64,000 nucleotides of DNA from Pseudomonadota bacterium (GTDB lineage: Bacteria; Pseudomonadota; Alphaproteobacteria; Puniceispirillales; Marisalimonadaceae), in NCBI GenBank assembly GCA_027625145.1, contig JAQBXK010000007.1, positions 1-64,000 of the forward strand, written 5' to 3'. Each line of letters starts with the position of its first letter. Position 1 is the first letter of the stretch. This document shows, one piece after another, positions 2,651 through 42,581 of this stretch. The notes beneath the pieces were generated by a model. That model worked only from the letters and a program-made list of their open reading frames with translations. It was not told the DNA's origin and made no database searches. Both the position numbers and the translations under genes were made by a program.

Positions 2651-3493
2651 TTATAACCATCTTTTTCGACGTCTATATTGTTTTACGTCTTTAAATGATT
2701 GTCTTCCTTCACCAGATATACCTAAATAAAATTCTTTGACATCTTCGTTATCTCTCATAGATTCAGCGCTGCCTTCCATAACAACGCGTCCATTTTCAAG
2801 AATATATGCATATTCAGCGTATTGAAGTGCTATATTAGTATTTTGTTCTGCAAGTAAAATTGTCACACCTTCTTTTTTATTGATCTCTTTAACAATTTCA
2901 AAAATTTGTTTTACTAACTGTGGAGCTAGACCCATTGAAGGTTCATCTAATAATATCATAGTTGGTTTTGCCATTAAAGCACGACCTATAGCTATCATTT
3001 GTTGTTCACCGCCAGATGTATAACCCGCTTGTGATGTCCTTCTGTCACGTAATCTTGGAAAATAATTATAAACTCTTTCTAGATCAAGTTTAACCTCTTT
3101 TGCATTACTTCTAGTATAAGCACCAGTAAGTAAGTTTTCTTCAACTGTTAAATGCTCAAAACAATGTCTGCCTTCCATAACTTGAATAACGCCTTTTTTA
3201 ACAAGTTGTGATGGATCAAGCTCGTGTATGTACTCATCTTTAAACTTAACTGAACCTTTTGTAACCTGACCTCTTTCTGAAGCTAATAAAGTAGATATTG
3301 CTTTTAACGTTGTACTTTTCCCAGCACCATTCCCACCAAGTAAAGCAGTAATACCCCCTTTTCTTACATTTAAGCTTACGCCCTTTAAAACTAAAATAAC
3401 ATGGCTGTAAACCACTTCAATATTATTAACTATCAGAATATCATCATTTTCATCTGATTTTTTATTGTTATTTATTGCTTTAATATCAGCCAT
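2651..3493 (-). CDS. livF: ABC transporter ATP-binding protein, LivF-type
   Basis: A 280-residue ATPase of a branched-chain-amino-acid-type (HAAT) importer. Walker A (GGNGAGKST, near residue 55), the LivF-style signature SGGEQQM, Walker B (MILLDEPSMGL) and the H-loop region AEQN are present. It is longer than classic LivF (about 235) because of a 20-residue polar N-terminal extension and a basic tail ending YRRRKRWL; similar extensions are seen in LivF proteins located next to PaaK-like ligases. It follows livK after a hairpin with a T tract (3511-3546), so its expression probably depends on partial read-through. The substrate is probably not leucine, given the catabolic neighbours. Confidence 0.88.
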   Translation of the reverse strand: MADIKAINNNKKSDENDDILIVNNIEVVYSHVILVLKGVSLNVRKGGITALLGGNGAGKSTTLKAISTLLASERGQVTKGSVKFKDEYIHELDPSQLVKKGVIQVMEGRHCFEHLTVEENLLTGAYTRSNAKEVKLDLERVYNYFPRLRDRRTSQAGYTSGGEQQMIAIGRALMAKPTMILLDEPSMGLAPQLVKQIFEIVKEINKKEGVTILLAEQNTNIALQYAEYAYILENGRVVMEGSAESMRDNEDVKEFYLGISGEGRQSFKDVKQYRRRKRWL

Positions 3494-3510: not shown

Positions 3511-3546
3511 AAAAAAAGAGCCTATTAAAATCTAAATAGGCTCTTT
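3511..3546 (-). terminator. Hairpin with U tract between livK and livF
   Basis: On the minus strand the arms AAAGAGCCTATT and AATAGGCTCTTT (3535-3546 and 3515-3526) pair over 12 bp with an 8-nt loop and run into a tract of seven U residues (3511-3517). This has the form of an intrinsic terminator, but it sits inside an operon, 7 bp after the livK stop and 18 bp before the livF start. Partial termination, or 3'-end protection of the livK message, would favour binding-protein synthesis. Confidence 0.75.
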
Positions 3547-3552
3547 AATTTT

Positions 3553-4848
3553 TTAGTTACAACGTAGAGTTAATTTTTGCTCTTCAGCGTATTTTGTAGA
3601 ATCTTCAGCGATTAATTTATTAACCACTTCACTGTCACCGTACATATATTCAGTGATTAAATTCCACTTTTTAGCTTTTGCATCCCATTGTTGAACTGCA
3701 GCTAAACCGCTTCCACCATGATTTTCACAAGTGTTCTCAAATGCAGGTGCAAAGTCCTTAAAGCCTAATTCTTGGTATCTCTTAGCATCAAGCTTTACAT
3801 TTTCCATTCCATCACGGTACATTGCTGCAGTGATTTTAGATGTTCCATGTATTTTTTGAGCAACTGTAGCAGCTTCTACTTGAACCATAGCTTGGAAAAG
3901 CCCTCTATTATATAGAACTGTTCCAAAATGAGATCCGTCACCTGATTGCTCACCTTTATCAAATACATATTTTTTAATATCTTTATGCACTTGATAGTTA
4001 TCTCCAGGAGCGTTAAATGTTAGCGACTTGTAACCATGAGCTCCCATACCAGATGGTAACACATCATTTTCTGATCCTGACCACCAAATTCCAATAAATT
4101 TATCCATCGGAAAACCAATTGATGCTGCAGATTTTATAGCAACAGAGTTCATCACACCCCAACCCCACATTAAGACATAATCTGGACGGCTTTTACGTAT
4201 ATTAAGCCAAGTTGCCTTTTGCTCTTGTCCTGGATGATCAACTGGTAATAACATTAGTTTATAGCCATGTTTCTTTGCTAAAACTTCAAGCGTTCTAATT
4301 GGCTCTTTACCATAAGCTGAGTTATGATAAACAAGTGCTATTGTTTTACCTTTAATGTTTCCCAGATTTTCTTTTAATACATGTCTAACAGCTATTGAGG
4401 CTCCATCCCAATAAGTTGCTGGAGCATTAAAAATCCATTTAAAAACTTTACCATTTTTAGCGGATGTTCTTCCGTAACCAGTAGAATAAACAGTAACTCC
4501 ATCATTGGTTGCTTTTGGAATTAATTGATAAGTAATACCAGTAGACATTGGTTGAAAAACCATAGCGTTTTCTTTGTTTTTCTCGTAGCACTCTACACCG
4601 ACTTGTGTTTTGTAACCAGTTTCGCATTCAGGGTGTAATATTTTTTCACCACCAATGCCGCCGTCTCTAGCGTTAATCATCTTATAGTAGTCAACAAAAC
4701 CATCTGCATTCGGAATTCCGTTAGGTGCATATGCTCCCGTACGGTATACAAGCATTGGAAATTTAAGATCTGCTACTGCTATTTCCACAAAACCAGAAAT
4801 CGCAACTACAGCACTAGTAAGTCCAATTATAAGTTGTTTTATTCTCAT
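3553..4848 (-). CDS. ABC transporter substrate-binding protein, LivK-type
   Basis: A 431-residue periplasmic binding protein of the Leu/Ile/Val type I fold. A Sec signal peptide is evident at residues 1-27 (basic MRIKQ, hydrophobic core, cleavage after a VADL-like region). Mature features include the ligand loop around YRTGAYAPNGIPNADG and DGGIGGEKI. It belongs to the larger HAAT binding proteins (about 400-430 residues) that accompany CoA-ligase-linked Liv operons. A good Shine-Dalgarno (GGGAGG) precedes the ATG. The gene is bracketed by terminator-like hairpins at 4879-4900 and 3511-3546, so it may form its own abundant transcript unit. Ligand unknown; an organic or aromatic acid is my inference. 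Confidence 0.87.
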   Translation of the reverse strand: MRIKQLIIGLTSAVVAISGFVEIAVADLKFPMLVYRTGAYAPNGIPNADGFVDYYKMINARDGGIGGEKILHPECETGYKTQVGVECYEKNKENAMVFQPMSTGITYQLIPKATNDGVTVYSTGYGRTSAKNGKVFKWIFNAPATYWDGASIAVRHVLKENLGNIKGKTIALVYHNSAYGKEPIRTLEVLAKKHGYKLMLLPVDHPGQEQKATWLNIRKSRPDYVLMWGWGVMNSVAIKSAASIGFPMDKFIGIWWSGSENDVLPSGMGAHGYKSLTFNAPGDNYQVHKDIKKYVFDKGEQSGDGSHFGTVLYNRGLFQAMVQVEAATVAQKIHGTSKITAAMYRDGMENVKLDAKRYQELGFKDFAPAFENTCENHGGSGLAAVQQWDAKAKKWNLITEYMYGDSEVVNKLIAEDSTKYAEEQKLTLRCN

Positions 4849-7801: not shown

Positions 7802-9769
7802 TTATTTCTTACCTTTTTGAGGTTTTTTGATTTTGGGCTTAGCTGTCTTAGTATTTAATTGTTTTGTCTCAATTAAATGTTTAATTTCCATTGTTGCGCT
7901 TATTTTACTTTTTCTTCCATCTTCAAGTGTGAATTCGGTATTAATTGAAGCTGTATTTTTATCAGAATATAAATCTTTAATTATATCTTTATATCTATCA
8001 TTAATTACACTTCTTCTAACTTTTCTAGTTCTTGTTAATTCACCATCATCAGCTTCTAACTCTTTAAATAATAATAGAAATTTTGAAATTTTAGTATTTT
8101 CTGGTAACTTGTCATTAACTTGTAAAATTTCATTCTCGATAAGATCATATATTTTTTTATCGGCAGATAGACCTGTATATGAAGTAAAAGCTAATTGCCA
8201 TTTTTCAGCTAACTTTGAAACTATAGAAAATCTAATACAAATAATTGCAGTAAGATATGGTTTGTTAGAGCCAATCACTACGGCTTCTCCAACGTATGGA
8301 GAAAATTTTAACTTATTTTCAATATTTTGAGGAGAAAATTTTACACCATCGGATTTTATAGCAATATCATTAATTCTATCTACTACATTTAATCTTCCAG
8401 TTTTATCTATAAAGCCAGCATCACCAGTATGCATCCAACCTTTTTTTATGGTGTCTTTAAATGCTTTTTCGTCATTGTAATATCCTGAAAACATACTTGG
8501 ATGTTTTGTAATAATTTCACCCATTCCATTTGGATCAGGATCTATAATCTTAATTTCGCAATCAGGAAAAGGGATGCCTACTGTTTCACAATCCATTGTA
8601 CCTTCAGGCACTTCTTGAAGTGTGTAAGCTCCCATTAATTCTGTTTGACCATATAATTGTCTTAATGGAATTCCCATAGCTAAGAAAAATTTAAAGGTTT
8701 CAGGCCCTATGGCCGATCCACCAGTTGCTGCAGAAGTAACCTTACTAAAGCCAAGTCTGTCTTTTAATGATGAGAAAAGGAGTTTGTCTGCAAGAAAATC
8801 CCTCTTACCTTCATCTACTGCTTTTAATCCTCTTTTTAACATAACATTAAAAAGCCATTGAGTTATCTTAGGTGCATCTAAAATTCTTGACCGCATGTCG
8901 GCTGCAATTTGTTCCCATAGCCTTGGAGCGCCAAGCATAAAAGTTGGTCCAATTTCTCGCATATCTTCCATCGCCGTTTCAGGTCTTTCAGGAAAGTTAA
9001 CCTTCATGCCTCCAATAATATTAAAACCTACTGCGTAAGTTTGTTCCATAATCCAGGGGAAAGGGAGAACAGAAACATATTCATCTTCAATTGTTTTAGG
9101 ATCAACATTCAAATATCTAACTACATGTTCAATAAATTTACCACCTGGTAGCATTGCTAATTTAGGATTTGAAGTTGTTCCAGAAGTTGTACAAAGTATT
9201 GCATTTTGATCAGCATGTATTGAATCTATTAATTTATTGTAAGAATTCTGATTCTTAGCTGCAATAGCCTTGCCTTCATTTATTAATTGGACCATGTCGA
9301 TAATATGTGGATCATTTAATTCTTTTAATCCTCTGCTATCTTCATAAAAAATAGTAATTTTATTATTTTTAGTTCTCTTTATGGTAAGAAGTTTATCAAC
9401 CTGTTCTTGATCTTCAGCAAAGGCAAAGTTTACCTTTGCAGCCTCTATTAGATATCCCACTTCATCATCAAGAGTATCTCTATAAATTCCTAAGCTCATT
9501 CCACCAGCTGCTTGAGCGGCAAGTTCAAAGAAAAGCCAAGAAGGTTTATTGTCACCTATAAGGCCAATTACATCGCCTAACTTAAATCCTCTTTTAGCTA
9601 ATCCAAGAGATAAATAAGAAACTATTTCATGATATTCTTTCCATGTTATTTCATTCCATATTCCAAGATCTTTGTCGCGTAAAGCTATAGTTGTTGGAAT
9701 TGTTTCAGCCCTATAACGAAGAACTTTAGGAAGAGTATTATGTTTTTTTGTATCAGGATAATTAGACAT
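7802..9769 (-). CDS. AMP-forming long-chain-type acyl-CoA ligase
   Basis: A 655-residue adenylate-forming enzyme of the long-chain acyl-CoA synthetase (FAA/ACSL-like) group. The P-loop TTSGTTSNPK is near residue 195, the adenylate motif YGQTELMGAY near 375, and the hinge region GWMHTGDAGFIDKTGRLNVVDR near 440. A lysine-rich tail (about 20 residues) ends the protein. It is the first gene of the Liv operon and abuts livG with no gap, which links CoA activation to import. Similar ligases accompany Liv operons in other proteobacteria (family knowledge). The true acid substrate is unknown; the neighbouring PaaK-like ligase suggests it is not only ordinary fatty acids. Confidence 0.87.
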   Translation of the reverse strand: MSNYPDTKKHNTLPKVLRYRAETIPTTIALRDKDLGIWNEITWKEYHEIVSYLSLGLAKRGFKLGDVIGLIGDNKPSWLFFELAAQAAGGMSLGIYRDTLDDEVGYLIEAAKVNFAFAEDQEQVDKLLTIKRTKNNKITIFYEDSRGLKELNDPHIIDMVQLINEGKAIAAKNQNSYNKLIDSIHADQNAILCTTSGTTSNPKLAMLPGGKFIEHVVRYLNVDPKTIEDEYVSVLPFPWIMEQTYAVGFNIIGGMKVNFPERPETAMEDMREIGPTFMLGAPRLWEQIAADMRSRILDAPKITQWLFNVMLKRGLKAVDEGKRDFLADKLLFSSLKDRLGFSKVTSAATGGSAIGPETFKFFLAMGIPLRQLYGQTELMGAYTLQEVPEGTMDCETVGIPFPDCEIKIIDPDPNGMGEIITKHPSMFSGYYNDEKAFKDTIKKGWMHTGDAGFIDKTGRLNVVDRINDIAIKSDGVKFSPQNIENKLKFSPYVGEAVVIGSNKPYLTAIICIRFSIVSKLAEKWQLAFTSYTGLSADKKIYDLIENEILQVNDKLPENTKISKFLLLFKELEADDGELTRTRKVRRSVINDRYKDIIKDLYSDKNTASINTEFTLEDGRKSKISATMEIKHLIETKQLNTKTAKPKIKKPQKGKK

Positions 9770-28192: not shown

Positions 28193-29671
28193 TTAGTCTT
28201 TTTGTTTTGTTATCACGCCATATATGTAAGGCCCGCATAATCCAAGAAATGCAAGTACAAGAAAAAACGCAGCTAATGGCTGAGTTAAAATCATCCACCA
28301 CTGTCCATCAAACATTTTCAATGAGTTTTGAAGATTACTTTCTACCATTTCACCTAAAATAAGACCAACTGCAATGGGAGCAACCGCAAATCCATGTCTT
28401 CTTGCAAAAAATCCAATAACCCCAAAAATTAAAGCTATCCAAATATCAAGAGTGGATTGTTGTATGGCATAAGCACCAATTACAGACAAAGCAAATACAA
28501 TTGGCCATAACATAGGTCTTGGTATTAACGAAACTCTAGCAAATAATTTAGCTGCATAAAGTCCCATAGCCATAAACATAAAATTAGCTAATAACATTGA
28601 GCCAAAAATTTGATATACTGTGTCTACTTGCTCAGTAAATAAATACGCTCCAGGTCTTAATCCATGAACCATTAGACCTACTAAAATTATAGCAGTTGTT
28701 CCGCTTCCAGGAATACCTAGCACCATAGTTGGAACCATTGCTCCACCAGTAGCTGCATTATTAGCTGCTTCAGCTCCGGCAATACCTTCTATCGAACCTT
28801 TACCAAATTCTTCTTTATTTTTTGACCATCTTCTTGCCTCAGAATAACCAATCATAGAAGCAACTGTAGCTCCTTCAGCAGGCAATATACCAATAAAAGT
28901 ACCTATGCCGGATGATCGCAAGATTGTTTTCCATATTTTTTTGTAATCTTCTTTAGTTGGCAATTTAACAGCCTTTAGTGCCACAGTTTCTATAATTAGA
29001 TTGACAGTTTTAGATTGCACTAACATTTCTGAAATTGCAAAAAGGCCAATAAAAACAGGGACAAAAGATAACCCTTCGTACAACTCATAATTTCCAAACA
29101 TAAATCGTTCAATATTAGTAACTCTTTCAGCTCCTATAGTAGATAGCCATACCCCAAAAACACCGCCAATAAGGTTTTTTGTAGCTCCTCCAGCGCTAAT
29201 GCTAGCTAACATTGACAAGCCAAAAATAGTAAGAGCAAAGTACTCAGGTGGACGAAATTCATAAGCAACTCTTGCTAATAGAGGAGCTGCAATACATAAA
29301 ACAATAATGGAAAAAACACCTCCTATTGTGCTTGATACAACAGCAATACCTAGGGCACGCCCTGCCTCTCCCTTTTGTGCTAATGGATATCCATCAAATG
29401 TAGTAGCTGCAGAAGCAGAAGTCCCAGGTGTGTTAATTAAAATAGCAGTTATAGAGCCGGCAAATGTGGCAGAAACATAAATGGTTGATAGAACGGCTAT
29501 TGCCTGAACAGGTTCCATGGTTAATGTAAAAGGTAGCAATAATGCCGCACCTGTCGTAGCACCAAGGCCTGGTAAGACACCTATAATTATACCTAGTATT
29601 GTTGTAGCAAAAATTAATGCTATTAAGTATGGGTCGGTGAAAACCGATGCCATTGCTGATAATTCAACCAT
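28193..29671 (-). CDS. tctA: Tripartite tricarboxylate transporter permease TctA
   Basis: A 492-residue polytopic membrane protein of the TctA family, the large subunit of tripartite tricarboxylate transporters, driven by ion gradients. The family signatures GVLPGLGATTGAALLLPFT near residue 30 and IGILPAEGATVASMIGYSEARRWSK near 255, plus GIPGSGTTAIILVGL near 320, are clear and reflect its internal duplication. It is the last gene of tctCBA, with 12 bp after tctB. The substrate could be citrate, another carboxylate or an aromatic acid; it depends on the binding protein. Confidence 0.93.
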   Translation of the reverse strand: MVELSAMASVFTDPYLIALIFATTILGIIIGVLPGLGATTGAALLLPFTLTMEPVQAIAVLSTIYVSATFAGSITAILINTPGTSASAATTFDGYPLAQKGEAGRALGIAVVSSTIGGVFSIIVLCIAAPLLARVAYEFRPPEYFALTIFGLSMLASISAGGATKNLIGGVFGVWLSTIGAERVTNIERFMFGNYELYEGLSFVPVFIGLFAISEMLVQSKTVNLIIETVALKAVKLPTKEDYKKIWKTILRSSGIGTFIGILPAEGATVASMIGYSEARRWSKNKEEFGKGSIEGIAGAEAANNAATGGAMVPTMVLGIPGSGTTAIILVGLMVHGLRPGAYLFTEQVDTVYQIFGSMLLANFMFMAMGLYAAKLFARVSLIPRPMLWPIVFALSVIGAYAIQQSTLDIWIALIFGVIGFFARRHGFAVAPIAVGLILGEMVESNLQNSLKMFDGQWWMILTQPLAAFFLVLAFLGLCGPYIYGVITKQKD

Positions 29672-29683
29672 AATTCTCTCTAT

Positions 29684-30145
29684 CTATCCATAATAAATAT
29701 TTGTTAGTATGCCTCTTGGAAATCTAATTTTTAACACATAATCAAAAAGTATAAATATTGCTCCAGGGGTAATAATCGCGTTACATATATTTACCCATAA
29801 ACGTTTTTCTCCCCATGTATAACCCATTAAAAACATGCAGACCGTTATTCCAATAAACATATCAGTTGTAATTGTTAAGAAATAAAAAAGTAAGAAAAGA
29901 AAAATGGTAAACCAAGTTGTAAATATTTCTAATTCAATTCTTTTTGGATAATTTTTAAAAAATTGTAGTGAAAGAAAACTAATTAAAATTAAATTTATAA
30001 CCATTAAAAAAATAGGAAATGTACGCGCTTGCATACTGTCGCCAACGATCATTTCAGGAGAAGTATCAAATTGCAGTGATATCAAAATAATTGCAATTGA
30101 AAAAAGTGCCAGAAATATTGGAGTTATATATAGTTTTTTTTGCAT
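29684..30145 (-). CDS. tctB: Tripartite tricarboxylate transporter small subunit TctB
   Basis: A 153-residue protein with four predicted hydrophobic helices and the common TctB layout (short N-terminal helix, a long loop with DSMQARTFPIFLMV, then three helices). Sequence identity in this family is low, so the assignment rests on topology, size and its place between tctC and tctA. It is a small membrane subunit of the importer. Confidence 0.87.
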   Translation of the reverse strand: MQKKLYITPIFLALFSIAIILISLQFDTSPEMIVGDSMQARTFPIFLMVINLILISFLSLQFFKNYPKRIELEIFTTWFTIFLFLLFYFLTITTDMFIGITVCMFLMGYTWGEKRLWVNICNAIITPGAIFILFDYVLKIRFPRGILTNIYYG

Positions 30146-30154
30146 AATTTTACC

Positions 30155-30184
30155 TTTAGATGCCCTTAATTAAGGGCATCTAAA
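30155..30184 (-). terminator. 30-bp perfect palindrome between tctC and tctB
   Basis: Bases 30155-30184 form an uninterrupted palindrome (half-site TTTAGATGCCCTTAA), capable of a long stem in tctC-B mRNA. It is 14 bp after the tctC stop codon and 9 bp before the tctB start, so it covers the entire junction. No U tract follows, so mRNA 3'-end protection or processing of tctC fits better than full termination. The short gap also means it could limit tctB translation. Confidence 0.7.
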
Positions 30185-30198
30185 TTAATTTAAAGTGT

Positions 30199-31179
30199 TT
30201 ACTTTATAAGACCCATTTCTTTTAAAGCAGGTCCAAATTCGCTAACCATAAATTTGATTTGTTTTCCCCATGCTGCAGAAGCTTGCGGAGAAGTGTTGTC
30301 TAGTCCTGAATTTGCAAGGTAAGCTTGATACAATGAATGTTTCATTGCTTTAGTTATACTTTCTTCCATAGCTGCTACTCTTGCTGGATCCGTTCCTGCA
30401 TGAGTAACAAATCCTCTAGTAGTAGAAAGAACTAAGTCAACACCAAGAGATTTAGCTGTTTTTGCTTTAGGTATAGGTCCCATTGGGTCGTAACCTAAAA
30501 TAATTAATGGACATAAGTCTCCAGCTTCAATAGGAGCTCCTGCTTCAGATAGATTTAATATTCCAACATCTACTGATCCAGCTACTACCTGAGTAGCAAG
30601 TTCGCCACCACCTTTAAAAGCTATATATTTAGGCATTGGTTTTCCTATTTTCTTTGCCCATAAGTAAGCAGTTAGATGATCAATAGTTCCGGTATGAGTT
30701 CCTCCAAAGCTAATCTTATCACCTTTTTTCATGCCTGCTAAAAAGCTTTCAGGTGTTTTATAAGGACTTTTTTTACAATTAACCATTAAAATTTGAGGAT
30801 CGTTTGTACCTCTTGCAATAGGGGCTATGTCTTCTATTTTTAATTTAGTTTTCCCCATTGCCATTGCAATAGCGTGACCAACTGTGAATGTAAGTATGGT
30901 ATTTCCATCGGCAGGTCGTGTCATAAAATAATTCATAGATGCAGCGCCGCTGCCACCTTTTTTATTAACAACAACCATATCTTGTTTTAGTTCTCTTCTA
31001 GCACGAATCATCATCATTCTTGAGTTAACGTCAGTTCCGCCACCAGCTCCTGCGTGAGTTACAACTTCAAGAGCTGGCCTACTATCTGCGGCTATAGCTG
31101 ACACTGTTGAGAAAGTAACAGCTGTAGCAAGAGCAACAAAGCTGGTTCCTAATTTGAAAAGCATTTTAGATTTAATCAT
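30199..31179 (-). CDS. tctC: Tripartite tricarboxylate transporter substrate-binding protein TctC
   Basis: A 326-residue periplasmic binding protein (Bug/TctC family). A Sec signal peptide of about 31 residues ends near AIAADS. The mature part has the family ligand-loop pattern: HAGAGGGTDVNSR, VVNKKGGSGAASMNYF, and the FKGGGELATQVVAGSVDVG block near 190. The ribosome site GGAGG stands 9 bp before the ATG; a small hairpin precedes it at 31203-31216. It captures the substrate for TctAB, likely a carboxylate. Confidence 0.92.
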   Translation of the reverse strand: MIKSKMLFKLGTSFVALATAVTFSTVSAIAADSRPALEVVTHAGAGGGTDVNSRMMMIRARRELKQDMVVVNKKGGSGAASMNYFMTRPADGNTILTFTVGHAIAMAMGKTKLKIEDIAPIARGTNDPQILMVNCKKSPYKTPESFLAGMKKGDKISFGGTHTGTIDHLTAYLWAKKIGKPMPKYIAFKGGGELATQVVAGSVDVGILNLSEAGAPIEAGDLCPLIILGYDPMGPIPKAKTAKSLGVDLVLSTTRGFVTHAGTDPARVAAMEESITKAMKHSLYQAYLANSGLDNTSPQASAAWGKQIKFMVSEFGPALKEMGLIK

Positions 31180-33000: not shown

Positions 33001-34137
33001 ATGAATAAATTAACAATGATATTTGGGGCATTATTATTGATGTCTTCAGGATCTGTAAATGCAGACGGTCATAAGGTTAAAGTTGGAATGATTACTACTT
33101 TATCTGGAGGAGGCTCTGGATTAGGAATTGATGTAAGAGACGGTTTTATGCTTGCTGTTAAAAATAATAAAAATATTAGTGTAATCATCAAAGATGACCA
33201 AAGAAAACCTGATATTGCAGTTCAGTTAGCAGATAAAATGATACAGTCAGATAAAGTTGATGTTTTGACAGGAATAATCTGGTCAAATTTAGCTATGGCA
33301 GTTGTTCCTGCAACAGTTAATCAAGGAAAATTTTATCTGTCGCCTAATGCTGGCCCATCTGCTTTGGCTGGTAAAGGTTGTCATAAAAATTATTTTAACG
33401 TTGCTTGGCAAAATGATAACTTGCATGAAGCAGCTGGAGGATATGCAAACTCTGCAGGTTTTAAAAAATCTTTTATTCTTGCTCCTAATTACCCTGCTGG
33501 CAAAGATGCCCTTACAGGATATAAGAGATTTTTTAAAGGTGAACTTGCGGGTGAAATATATACTAAACTAGGTCAAAAAGATTATGCAGCTGAGATAGCT
33601 CAAATCAGAGCATCTGGAGCTGATAGCATTTTCTTTTTCTTGCCAGGGGGAATGGGCATAGGTTTTATGAAACAATTCTCTCAATCAGGAATTAAGATTC
33701 CGGTCGTAGGACCAGCTTTTTCCTTTGACCAAGGGATTCTTAAAGCAGTTGGTGATGCTGCGTTAGGTGTTAAAAACACATCACAATGGTCAAAGGATAT
33801 TAAAAACACAGCAAATCAAAAATTTGTAGATGATTTTAAATCTGCTTATGGAAGGTTGCCATCTTTATACGCATCTCAAGGTTACGATACAGGAAAACTT
33901 TTAATTTCTGCAATGTCTAAAGCAAAGATCAAAGATACTGATAAATTTAGAAATGAATTAAGAAAAGCTGATTTTTCATCAACTAGAGGTAAATTTAAGT
34001 TTTCTAAAAATCATCATCCAATACAAGATATATATGTTCGTGAAGTTATAAAGGAAGGTAAGATTTTAACCAATAAAATAATTTCAGTTGGGCTTAAAGA
34101 TCATTCAAATGTTTATGTTTCCGAATGTAAAATGTAA
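33001..34137 (+). CDS. ABC transporter substrate-binding protein, LivK-type (second system)
   Basis: A 378-residue periplasmic binding protein of the Leu/Ile/Val fold. The Sec signal peptide is residues 1-21 (ends SVNADG). The mature part starts KVKVGMITTLSGGGSGLGIDVRDG, with a ligand-loop serine/glycine run, and continues with VVPATVNQGKFYLSPNAGPSALAGKGCHKNYF. It resembles the branch linked to aromatic acids or amides, as much as amino acids. A strong ribosome site (GGGG at -8) precedes the ATG. A 12-bp hairpin follows its stop, before livH. Confidence 0.88.
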   Translation: MNKLTMIFGALLLMSSGSVNADGHKVKVGMITTLSGGGSGLGIDVRDGFMLAVKNNKNISVIIKDDQRKPDIAVQLADKMIQSDKVDVLTGIIWSNLAMAVVPATVNQGKFYLSPNAGPSALAGKGCHKNYFNVAWQNDNLHEAAGGYANSAGFKKSFILAPNYPAGKDALTGYKRFFKGELAGEIYTKLGQKDYAAEIAQIRASGADSIFFFLPGGMGIGFMKQFSQSGIKIPVVGPAFSFDQGILKAVGDAALGVKNTSQWSKDIKNTANQKFVDDFKSAYGRLPSLYASQGYDTGKLLISAMSKAKIKDTDKFRNELRKADFSSTRGKFKFSKNHHPIQDIYVREVIKEGKILTNKIISVGLKDHSNVYVSECKM

Positions 34138-34189: not shown

Positions 34190-35110
34190 ATGGCACTCAT
34201 CTTATTCATAGAGCAACTTTTAAATGGCATCCAATTTGGAATAATGCTTTTTTTAATTTCTGCAGGATTAACTCTCATTTTTGGTGTAATGGGATTAATT
34301 AATCTTGCGCATGGTTCTTTTTATATGATAGGAGCTTTTGCTGCTAGCATTGTTGCTGGTTTGACCGGCTCTTTCTGGATTGCCTTGGCAGCAAGTTTAT
34401 CCGCTGCTGCAATTGCTGGAGTGTTAATTGAAGTTTTAATTATCAGGCATTTGTACAAAAGAGATCATTTAGATCAAGTCTTAGCTACTTTTGCCTTGAT
34501 ATTATTGTTATCTGAAGGTGTAAGATGGTTATTTGGAGCTTTTCCTTTATATCTAAATATCCCCAGTTCTTTGGATGGAAGTATTCTTCTGTCGTTTAAT
34601 ATAATTTATTCAAAATATAGAATGTTTATTATTTTAATAGGCATATTAATAGCATTAGGTCTCTATTTTTTGATTTCTAAAACTCGATTAGGAATTCGTA
34701 TAAGAGCCGGACAAAATGATCGTGAAATGATATCTGCCCTTGGAGTTGATATAAGCAAGCTTTATACAATTGTATTTGCAATAGGAGCAGCACTTGCAGG
34801 TTTGGCAGGGGCAATGATTGGAGCTATTCAATCCATTGAAGTCGGAATGGGTGAACCAGTTTTAATTTTAGCTTTTGTTGTCATAGTTATTGGAGGAATA
34901 GGATCTATTAAGGGAGCATTTATAGGTTCTATTTTAGTAGGAGTTACAGATACAATTGGAAGAGTTTTCTTGCCCACTTTTTTAAACTATTTTATGGATT
35001 CTTCAAATGCTTCATCATTGGGTTCTTCAATAGGTTCAATGTTAATATATATATTGATGGCATCCGTATTACTTCTAAAACCTTCTGGATTGTTTGGAAA
35101 GAGTGAGTAA
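34190..35110 (+). CDS. livH: ABC transporter permease, LivH-type (second system)
   Basis: A 306-residue membrane protein with about eight to nine helices. Family signatures: NGIQFGIMLFLISAGLTLIFGVMGLINLAHGSFYMIGAF at the start, the ATPase-contacting loop GIRIRAGQNDREMISALGVDISK, and the C-terminal LLKPSGLFGK. It follows the hairpin after livK and overlaps the next gene by one base (TAATG). Confidence 0.9.
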   Translation: MALILFIEQLLNGIQFGIMLFLISAGLTLIFGVMGLINLAHGSFYMIGAFAASIVAGLTGSFWIALAASLSAAAIAGVLIEVLIIRHLYKRDHLDQVLATFALILLLSEGVRWLFGAFPLYLNIPSSLDGSILLSFNIIYSKYRMFIILIGILIALGLYFLISKTRLGIRIRAGQNDREMISALGVDISKLYTIVFAIGAALAGLAGAMIGAIQSIEVGMGEPVLILAFVVIVIGGIGSIKGAFIGSILVGVTDTIGRVFLPTFLNYFMDSSNASSLGSSIGSMLIYILMASVLLLKPSGLFGKSE

Positions 35111-38900: not shown

Positions 38901-41516
38901 TTAAGATTCCTTTTTTAGTTTTTTCCTTCGTGTATATTGATTGAAGTATATTAAAATTAATATCAACAAAGAAGGTAGGTAAAAAATCTCTTTCATTAAT
39001 CTATCAGTTTTTTTAATATAAATTGTTTTTAAAACAACTGGTTGATCCGCATAAAAGTCAAAAGTTCTCATTTCTTGAAATAGAGCACTTCCAGGTAATG
39101 GCTCTTCAATTAAGGCTTCTCCATTTTGAATATTTAAAATCAATCCGGCATCTTTTATTCTTTCATCAATGTTTAGTTTTTCATTAAATATAATGATTGA
39201 ATTTCTTTTTATTAATTTTTCTGGATTATCAAAATCAGGCCCTAAAAACTCTACTCTAACGGAGATATTTCCAGATAAGTTAATAGGTGATTTATCATTT
39301 GTAATTAATTGAACAATTTTGTTTCCTGGGAACTCAATGAAGGGCGATTGGACTTTATCTAGCCAAAAATCAGGCCTAAAGAGGCTAAACGCAATTACAA
39401 TAAGCAATATTGATTCATATAATTTATTCTTAACTAACATATGATTTTGAATTGCTGAACAAAAAGCTAGCATCGCAAGAATAACTGTAATAACAACTAT
39501 TATTCCATCAAAAAAATTAACATTAATTAAAAGAATATCAGTATTAAAAATAAACATAAATGGAAGTATGGCGGTCCTGATATCATAACTAAAACCTTGT
39601 ATACCCGTCTTTATAGGATCCCCTTTTGATATTGCTGCTGCAGCAAAAGCAGCTAATCCAACAGGAGGAGTGTCATCGGCTAAAATACCAAAGTAAAATA
39701 CAAAAAGATGTACTGCTACTAAAGGGACAATTAACCCATTTTGAGCCCCTACCATAACTATGACGGGTGCCATCAATGAAGAAACAACAATATAGTTTGC
39801 AGTCGTAGGAAGACCCATTCCTAATATTAAGCTCATAAAAGCTACTAGGATAAGCATAACAACTAAATTACCTGATGAAACATTTTCTACAAATTCACCT
39901 ATAAACTGATGTGCTCCAGTTAATGATACAGTGCCAATAATAACTCCAGCTATTCCAGTTGCTATTGCAATAGTAATCATGCTTTTCGCACCTTTTTCTA
40001 AGCCTTGAAGCAAGTCGCAAATACCATTTTTCCATAATTTATAACTTATATGTTGCTTTCTAAAAAAAGCTTTTAATGGTCGTTGAGTTAATAATACAAA
40101 AATAATAGACAGGCTTGCCCAATAAGCTGATAGGGAAGGTGATAATCTACTAACTAAAACACACCATAATAATACAATGATTGGTAAAAGATAATAATAG
40201 CCGGTGATTGCTATAGATTGAACAGTAGGCAAATTTTTCATTTCTTCATCATTTAAACCTAAAGTTAAGTCAGGGTTTTTAGATGCGCGCCATATAAAAA
40301 AAATATAGAAACTAATAAAAATAATAACAGCTGATATAAATGTTATGATTGGATCAATGTTGTTTGTCCAAGAGAATAAAATATTTATAATAGTTCCCAG
40401 CAAGCTAACTATTATAAAGCCAATTAAAAATCCTGTAAATTTTCTTAAAAAAGACTTTGATGGAGTATCTCTTTTAAGACCCGTTAAGCCTAATTTTATT
40501 ACTTCAAGATGTACAATATAAAAAAGAGCAACATATGATGCAAGTGCAGGCAAAGCCGCGTATTTAATAAGTTCATAGTAGCTAACATCTGTGAACTCTG
40601 AAATTAAAAAGGCTGCAGCTCCCATAACAGGAGGTGTTAATTGACCATTAGTAGAAGATGCTACTTCTATAGCCCCAGCTTTTTCAGCAGAGAGGCCAGT
40701 TTTTTTCATAAGTGGAATTGTAAATGTTCCAGTAGTGACTACATTGGCAATTGATGATCCTGAATAAATACCAGACAACCCAGAAGCAACAACAGCTGCT
40801 TTTGCTGGGCCTCCTCTAAGGTGTCCTAAGGCCGCGAAAGATAGTTTAATGAAATAATTTCCAGCACCAGATTTTTCTAATAAAGCTCCGAATAGGACAA
40901 ATAAAAAGATCATAGAAGTTGATACTCCTAAAGCAACGCCAAATACTCCTTCTGTTTGCATCCAAAAATGCCAAGAAGCTTTATTAAGGGAAGCTCCTTT
41001 CCATTTCATTGTTTCGGGAATAAAATCAAGATGACCAAACATGACATAGAATATAAATAAACTAGCTACTACTAATAATGGTAATCCAAGAGATCTGTAA
41101 ACAGCAATTCCTATGCATAAGATCCCTGTAATTGAAAAGAATACATCAAAATTAGTTGGTAATCCTGCTCTATTAGAAATATCTAATTTAAATATATATA
41201 AATACAAACAAGCCGAAACAGCAAGAAAAGCTAATATCAATTGGTTTAATTTATCTACGTATGGGTTGATTTTATTTATGACTGGATAAGCTAACAAGCA
41301 TAACCCTAAGCCAAAGGCTAAGTGTATTTGTCTAGCTTCTTGCCCATTAAAAACTAAATTTAATTTAGTTAGGGCACTTAAATAAAAAGGGAAATCTGAG
41401 GCAATCCAAAGTTGAAATAATGACCATATTATACAAATTAAAGAAATAACCTTACCAAAGGATGGTTCTCGTTGATTATAATTATGAGGAGATGAAATTG
41501 CTTTAAAGTACTTCAT
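38901..41516 (-). CDS. TRAP transporter fused permease (4TM-12TM) with DUF3394
   Basis: An 871-residue membrane protein in which the small DctQ-like and large DctM-like TRAP subunits are joined. The DctM part contains the family motifs SGIYSGSSIANVVTTGTFTIPLMKKTG near 250 and LILGMGLPTTANYIVVSSLMAP near 555, with VHLFVFYFGILADDTPPVGLAAF after it. The C-terminal 180 residues form a mostly soluble DUF3394-type region followed by a last helix. This fused form works with TAXI binding proteins, as encoded just upstream (96-bp gap with a hairpin). It is a sodium or proton-driven importer. Confidence 0.92.
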   Translation of the reverse strand: MKYFKAISSPHNYNQREPSFGKVISLICIIWSLFQLWIASDFPFYLSALTKLNLVFNGQEARQIHLAFGLGLCLLAYPVINKINPYVDKLNQLILAFLAVSACLYLYIFKLDISNRAGLPTNFDVFFSITGILCIGIAVYRSLGLPLLVVASLFIFYVMFGHLDFIPETMKWKGASLNKASWHFWMQTEGVFGVALGVSTSMIFLFVLFGALLEKSGAGNYFIKLSFAALGHLRGGPAKAAVVASGLSGIYSGSSIANVVTTGTFTIPLMKKTGLSAEKAGAIEVASSTNGQLTPPVMGAAAFLISEFTDVSYYELIKYAALPALASYVALFYIVHLEVIKLGLTGLKRDTPSKSFLRKFTGFLIGFIIVSLLGTIINILFSWTNNIDPIITFISAVIIFISFYIFFIWRASKNPDLTLGLNDEEMKNLPTVQSIAITGYYYLLPIIVLLWCVLVSRLSPSLSAYWASLSIIFVLLTQRPLKAFFRKQHISYKLWKNGICDLLQGLEKGAKSMITIAIATGIAGVIIGTVSLTGAHQFIGEFVENVSSGNLVVMLILVAFMSLILGMGLPTTANYIVVSSLMAPVIVMVGAQNGLIVPLVAVHLFVFYFGILADDTPPVGLAAFAAAAISKGDPIKTGIQGFSYDIRTAILPFMFIFNTDILLINVNFFDGIIVVITVILAMLAFCSAIQNHMLVKNKLYESILLIVIAFSLFRPDFWLDKVQSPFIEFPGNKIVQLITNDKSPINLSGNISVRVEFLGPDFDNPEKLIKRNSIIIFNEKLNIDERIKDAGLILNIQNGEALIEEPLPGSALFQEMRTFDFYADQPVVLKTIYIKKTDRLMKEIFYLPSLLILILIYFNQYTRRKKLKKES

Positions 41517-41612: not shown

Positions 41613-42581
41613 TTACATCCAACCACGTTCTTTATAATATTTAATAGCTCCAGGATGAAGGGGAGCAGATAATCCATCTTTAATCATTTGTTTCTCATTC
41701 AAATTTTTAAATGCTGGATGCAACTTTTTAAAGTCAGAAAAGTTATCAAATGTTGCTTTTACAATTGTGTATACAACTTTCTCAGATACGTCTGAAGATG
41801 TTATAACAGTAGCTCCTACACCAAATGTAGTTGTTTTATTAGGAGATCCTGTATACATGCCTGCTGGAACTTCGGCTACTCTATAAAATGAGTTGTCTTT
41901 AATTAATTTATCAATAGGAGCTCCTTTTACAGAAACTAATTGAACGTCACAGCTAGATGCAGCTTCTTTAACCGCGGCTGCAGGATGTCCTACTGTATAA
42001 ATCATTGCTTCTATCTTGCCGTCACAAATGGCTTGTGCCATTTCAGAACCTTTAAGTTCGGCAGCTAAAGAAAAATCACTCATTTTCATTCCGAATGATT
42101 CCATTACAACTTCCATTGTAGCTCTTTGTCCAGAACCAGGATTTCCAACGTTAACTTTTTTCCCTTTTAATCCCTCAAAAGAAGTTATCCCAGAATCTTT
42201 TCTCACAATTAACGTGAATGGTTCTGGATGGACTGAGAAAACAGCACGAAGTTTACTAAATTTACCTTTATCTTTAAATTTTGACGTTCCATGATAGGCA
42301 TGAAATTGCCAATCAGATTGAGCAACTCCAAATTCTAATTCGCCAGCACGAACAGTATTAATATTATATACTGAACCACCGGTTGATTCTGCAGAGCAGC
42401 GTATACCATGTGATTTTCTATCCTTGTTAACTAGTCTGCAAATAGCTCCGCCAGTTGGATAATAAACGCCAGTAACTCCGCCTGTACCTATAGACACAAA
42501 CTTTTGAGCAGATGCTTCAGTCATTGTTATAGCTGCAAAGCCTGCAACTATTACTCCCACTATTAGTTTTTTAAAATTCAT
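41613..42581 (-). CDS. TAXI-family TRAP transporter substrate-binding protein
   Basis: A 322-residue periplasmic protein with a Sec signal (residues 1-25, ending EASAQ). The TAXI family hallmarks are at the mature N-terminus: [25 protein letters not shown], then [29 protein letters not shown], and [22 protein letters not shown]. It captures the substrate for the fused TRAP permease. Known TAXI ligands include amino acids such as glutamate and other small acids; here the aminotransferase suggests an amino compound. The RpiR-family regulator is divergent. Confidence 0.92.

Follow-up and report, generated by a model that had tools for sequence, protein, structure and literature searches.

Hairpins behind the binding-protein genes of four importer operons

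The window, by which we mean the whole 64,000-nucleotide stretch of DNA analysed, comes from a SAR116-cluster alphaproteobacterium (nearest named relatives, SAR116-cluster single-cell genomes) and carries four solute-importer operons: two of the ABC type, a tripartite tricarboxylate transporter (TTT) and a TAXI-TRAP system (Table 1). Within each operon a hairpin starts 6-14 nt after the stop codon of the binding-protein gene, and the next gene 3' of it encodes part of the cognate transporter, namely the ABC ATPase, TctB, LivH and DctM. Pfam assignments of the binding proteins and of the genes that follow them agree with a first-pass annotation that had described three transporter families, each hairpin lying ahead of the next operon gene. 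No further binding protein was found among ten other large proteins scanned in the window, and none of its remaining proteins falls in the binding-protein clusters. In the TAXI permease, 871 aa long, a DctM protein is joined to a DUF3394 domain. At 1396-2643 and 7802-9769, two AMP-binding (acyl/aryl-CoA ligase-like) genes flank the livK1 operon on the same strand, one of them with a PaaK-type C-terminal domain, and these neighbours suggest that the substrate of the livK1 importer may be an aromatic or organic acid.

Table 1. Importer genes and 3' hairpins of the window (z from 200 dinucleotide shuffles; MFE, minimum free energy of the spacer in kcal/mol)
Feature	Position	Strand	Evidence
ABC transporter ATPase gene, 3' of the livK1 hairpin	2651..3493	-	PF00005, E 6e-27
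livK1 3' hairpin, 12-bp stem AAAGAGCCTATT/AATAGGCTCTTT, then 7 U	3511..3546	-	Fold z -3.5 (MFE -16.5); orthologs
livK1, ABC importer binding protein (Peripla_BP_6)	3553..4848	-	PF13458, E 3e-36
tctA, large membrane subunit	28193..29671	-	PF01970, E 2e-150
tctB, small membrane subunit	29684..30145	-	PF07331, E 4e-10
tctC 3' hairpin, perfect 30-bp palindrome	30155..30184	-	Fold z -5.5 (MFE -18.8); orthologs; covariation
tctC, TTT binding protein	30199..31179	-	TctC cluster membership; PF03401 on cluster members
livK2, binding protein of second ABC importer (Peripla_BP_6)	33001..34137	+	PF13458, E 8e-78
livK2 3' hairpin, 15-bp stem with G-U pairs, 3-nt loop	34145..34177	+	Fold z -6.3 (MFE -19.5); orthologs; covariation
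livH, permease gene, 3' of the livK2 hairpin	34190..35110	+	PF02653, E 9e-37
TRAP permease, fused DctM domain and DUF3394	38901..41516	-	PF06808, E 4e-69; PF11874, E 1e-38
TAXI 3' hairpin, 11-bp stem, 3-nt loop	41581..41605	-	Fold z -4.0 (MFE -17.4, first 60 nt of spacer); orthologs with changed stems
TAXI-TRAP binding protein (NMT1_3)	41613..42581	-	PF16868, E 1.8e-90

All four hairpins that the first-pass annotation had placed here exist, and shuffle folding backs each of them, none of the 200 dinucleotide shuffles per spacer folding as well as the native sequence. The tctC element is the perfect palindrome that had been described and forms, as RNA, a 13-bp stem with a 4-nt loop. It carries no U tract, nor do the livK2 and TAXI hairpins; livK1, whose 12-bp stem and U tract were as annotated, has the sole window hairpin with a real one. 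Two descriptions needed amending: the livK2 site was correct and its extent too short, since the stem can reach the full span given in Table 1, and the TAXI stem, put at 8 bp, has 11 bp with one G-U pair. An Rfam search of the window gave no match, which rules out a known RNA family, and inspection of the sampled binding-protein stems found no shared REP sequence. The stems are unrelated to one another and thus not copies of one repeat family, so that a repeat element is also ruled out.

Pairing is conserved while stem sequences diverge

The same GTDB family is represented by 58 genomes in 4 genera, and the ortholog counts given here include the window's own copy. The hairpin is kept after tctC in 43/43 family loci (tctC orthologs, 76-86% identical), after livK2 in 37/37, after livK1 in 30/30, with a U tract that varies, and after the TAXI gene in 4/4, with altered stems. 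The stems diverge among these orthologs and their pairing is preserved. For livK2, 94.9% of cells pair and 8 of 12 stem pairs show compensatory change with both sides altered, measures of pairing and covariation that were reached by 0 of 500 shuffles; the closest livK2 relative, with a 98% identical protein, already has a C-G to U-A exchange in its stem. For tctC, 94% of cells pair, where arm shuffles reach no more than 84%, and compensatory change is seen at 9 of 12 pairs, the pairs being counted in each clade's own register because the stem alignment shifts by one column between clades. The loops of the relatives are unpaired and variable in length. Among livK1 orthologs the stem is present throughout, with about 7 U behind it in genus g4 and only 3-4 U in genus g3. 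Across these orthologs (L361-L389) the U tract shifts between genera as if termination strength were tuned apart from the stem.

Strong hairpins are concentrated at binding-protein genes across the genome

The genome measures 2.27 Mb in 83 contigs, of which 1.65 Mb (GC 30.5%), taken as stretches, was examined with genes called by a custom script, whose gene starts overstate some spacers (that of livK2 is 52 nt, not 106). All co-directional junctions were scored using arbitrary thresholds, a strong hairpin scoring 22 or above; hairpin score and MFE are two measures and they agree. Binding proteins were found through clustering and Pfam (DctP, TAXI (NMT1_3), NMT1, TctC, Peripla_BP_6, SBP_bac_5, SBP_bac_3 and Bmp), and a PotD-like protein, assigned by appearance only, was included. 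Among co-directional junctions with spacers of 45-200 nt in the 1.65 Mb, a strong hairpin is present at 20/24 binding-protein junctions and at 13/262 others (p = 2e-18), or, by folding energy, at 20/24 and 9/262. The first-pass annotation had named equal hairpin frequency at matched junctions as telling against its view, and the frequencies are far from equal. Matched junctions and shuffles together rule out chance pairing in AT-rich DNA. Strong hairpins were found after ABC, TRAP, TAXI-TRAP and TTT binding-protein genes. Where a membrane or ATPase (ABC) gene comes next, 17/20 binding-protein genes have a hairpin with MFE ≤ -14, as against 0/27 non-binding-protein genes followed by a membrane-protein gene, which excludes an effect of the following membrane gene rather than of the binding-protein gene.

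Exceptions occur, mostly at short spacers (11-44 nt). In the sample, 30 binding-protein genes are followed by a gene in the same direction, and the six with spacers below 45 nt have no strong hairpin, so the hairpin is not required for every importer. Among the 24 whose spacers are longer, four do not reach the threshold: there is no hairpin at C12_65, weaker ones are found at C14_27 and C2_2, and C12_85 scores 21.5 where 22 is needed. The chromosome-wide rule proposed by the first-pass annotation therefore survives as a strong tendency, and 'all' holds within the window only. Outside the importers, strong hairpins follow a few genes that are probably very highly expressed, for a rhodopsin (L101:10438-11214), a porin (L052:8558-9529), GroEL (L043:5358-7019), glutamine synthetase (L066:2119-3528) and Hsp20 (L062:8320-8742), and these mostly carry U tracts and mostly stand ahead of long gaps. 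Most other gene ends are without a hairpin, which suggests mainly Rho-dependent or unstructured termination.

Distribution across Alphaproteobacteria and U-tract context

In 80 named livK loci, mostly from Alphaproteobacteria, 67 spacers fold at z ≤ -2; they range from 17 to 85% GC and hold unrelated hairpins in the same place. Where livH comes next in Alphaproteobacteria, a significant fold is found in 60/70 cases after livK and in 1/70 after livH. For the other families, a class-wide sample with spacers of at least 35 nt has a hairpin after 9/18 DctP, 10/11 TAXI and 3/8 TctC genes, and a same-locus control, made up of the DctP and TctC loci only, gives 12/25 vs. 4/39 (p = 0.001). Many of the loci in these samples, livK included, are related, so that their counts are not independent events. 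The hairpin after the binding-protein gene is widespread, not universal, and clearest for LivK and TAXI. What had been described as a design rule of this chromosome is thus real as a phenomenon and not specific to the chromosome, and the proposal that selection acts on structure rather than sequence is upheld by the compensatory changes together with the GC-rich relatives, which bear unrelated stems at the same place. A small group of livK loci from low-GC uncultured Alphaproteobacteria (L207-L210) has the usual spacer of 46-48 nt without a significant hairpin, a natural loss for which relatives that bear the hairpin could serve as comparison.

The U tract depends on what follows. Scored as at least 6 T in 8 nt, it accompanies 1/63 livK hairpins before livH vs. 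7/11 where livH is not next. Within this genome, at least 6 T are found at 6/20 binding-protein junctions vs. 11/13 other strong tandem hairpins, the latter as expected of terminators, and behind a DctP gene lying at a convergent end the hairpin has 9 U. The distance from hairpin to livH start has a median of 17 nt, and that to the tctB start is about 8-15 nt (by eye, in orthologs). A median of 17 nt is too short to hold a separate promoter, and polymerase must therefore read through into the permease.

A proposed 3' barrier and its alternatives

We favour, at a probability of about 60%, a reading in which the hairpins are 3' barriers that stop exonucleases, whether or not combined with partial termination, and raise the level of binding protein over that of permease. 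We infer both the mRNA step and its exonuclease mechanism, as follows. Each hairpin would act in cis as an RNA element, placed in the spacer that separates the binding-protein gene from the remaining importer genes, and would set unequal expression inside one polycistronic mRNA. Transcription would pass it partly or fully, and cleavage of the permease part by an RNase E-type enzyme, or premature release, would make it the 3' end of the binding-protein message, where it would block 3'-5' exonucleases such as PNPase. Message for the binding protein would then accumulate while the permease mRNA, without a hairpin, decayed. RNase E/G, PNPase and Rho are encoded in the genome. The context dependence of the U tract and the lack of promoter room together favour such a barrier after cleavage or premature release, of the kind demonstrated for malE and other E. 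coli operons (PMC5927463), and some of the members with a U tract (livK1 and the SBP3 gene C16_52) probably double as partial terminators. The serious rival is that the hairpins are mainly partial intrinsic (internal) terminators which let a fraction of polymerases continue into the permease genes, since 16 stem-loops in Ruminiclostridium, typically with poor U tracts, were shown experimentally to terminate (PMC9045158) and livK1 has its 7 U here and about as many in genus g4. We nevertheless judge it unlikely as the main action: only that single livK hairpin in 63 has a U tract when a permease gene is next, the tract is poor in 14/20 cases in this genome and missing from 3/4 window hairpins, and the genus g3 livK1 orthologs drop to 3-4 U while the stem stays. 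Because stem-loops in Clostridia terminate despite poor U tracts (PMC9045158), a missing U tract does not prove that termination is missing too, and either action would be expected to end alike, with binding protein in excess of pump.

An action on translation, by separating terminating ribosomes from the downstream start or by lowering permease initiation, would suit stems that lie so near the next start, but no conserved Shine-Dalgarno pairing is seen within the stems, livK1 orthologs have an AGGA motif free between stem and start, and the covariation gives no signal of pairing to the ribosome site, all of which makes it quite improbable. A little less probable still is that these are ordinary transcript ends marking highly expressed genes, binding-protein genes being merely such genes; the few strong hairpins behind GroEL, glutamine synthetase, porin, rhodopsin and Hsp20 fit this idea, yet those have U tracts and mostly precede long gaps, whereas the binding-protein hairpins are mostly U-less and sit in operon spacers of about 50 nt without promoter room. 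The perfect DNA palindrome at tctC could recall an operator site for a regulator, but it lies 3' of the first gene and not at a promoter, and a DNA operator is ruled out for practical purposes by stems whose sequence changes while pairing is kept and by loops that are unpaired and variable.

Comparison with known systems

The parallel with malE-type mRNA drawn by the first-pass annotation fits well, and cellulolytic Clostridia offer a closer one: in their ABC importer operons, internal terminators follow the 5' binding-protein genes (Wu et al. 2022, PMC9045158). There, stem-loops occur in 87.3% of long (>50 bp) spacers after these genes and short spacers are continuously transcribed; E. coli ABC cases were added in the same study by prediction (PMC9045158). 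Both sets share a stem-loop directly after the 5' binding-protein gene, a long spacer, a long stem and a poor U tract. At -16.5 to -19.5 kcal/mol the four window spacers lie well within the limit of ≤ -10 kcal/mol for stem-loops in spacers >50 bp, and the 3' tracts are low in U beside those of canonical terminators (the 6/20 vs. 11/13 and 1/63 vs. 7/11 given above). The Clostridia type is ABC and Gram-positive, whereas the hairpins here, in an AT-rich alphaproteobacterium, also stand in TRAP, TAXI-TRAP and TTT operons and show ortholog covariation. The livK operons are ABC operons and those of tctC (TctB/TctA) and TAXI (DctM) are not, so the class must be widened to include them.

In the E. 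coli ABC operons found to show differential decay, it was always the binding-protein gene that was stabilised, and its protective hairpins had no U tract (PMC5927463). A U-less hairpin between binding-protein and permease genes, as at malE-malF (PMC5927463), is what tctC, livK2 and TAXI have, livK1 differing by its U tract, and by analogy stabilisation would be expected for the binding-protein segment only. The E. coli protective structures lie mostly within the next coding sequence, whereas ours lie in the spacer, about 6-23 nt past the stop. Rho-independent terminators resemble the hairpins in having a GC-richer stem-loop and, at livK1, a U tract; unlike them, 3/4 window and 62/63 livK-livH hairpins are U-less, with the next operon gene within tens of bases. 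No precedent for TRAP or TTT importers was found in open papers. Early work on Rhodobacter capsulatus may have mentioned stem-loops between dctP and dctQ.

Significance for importer stoichiometry

A cell needs its binding proteins in large excess over membrane pumps, and to our knowledge it is known only for some ABC importers how one operon yields that excess. Hairpins after ABC binding-protein genes are already known in Clostridia and E. coli; their reach to TRAP, TAXI and TTT importers in marine Alphaproteobacteria, the ortholog covariation and the context-dependent U tract seem to be new. Most likely, the hairpins let a single shared message yield binding protein in far greater amount than membrane pump. 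More tentatively, and at slightly less than even odds, the U-less covarying hairpin would be a convergently maintained stoichiometry element of ABC, TRAP, TAXI and TTT importers across Alphaproteobacteria, with lineages switching between a terminator (with U tract) and a read-through decay barrier (U-less) by whether permease genes follow. The presence or absence of the U tract in otherwise equal hairpins is a natural contrast able to separate termination from decay, and for metagenomes the hairpin would be a simple predictor of expression steps. A device known for ATP-driven importers extends here to two importer kinds that do not use ATP, which suggests a general, sequence-independent solution common to mechanistically unrelated importers in abundant ocean bacteria.
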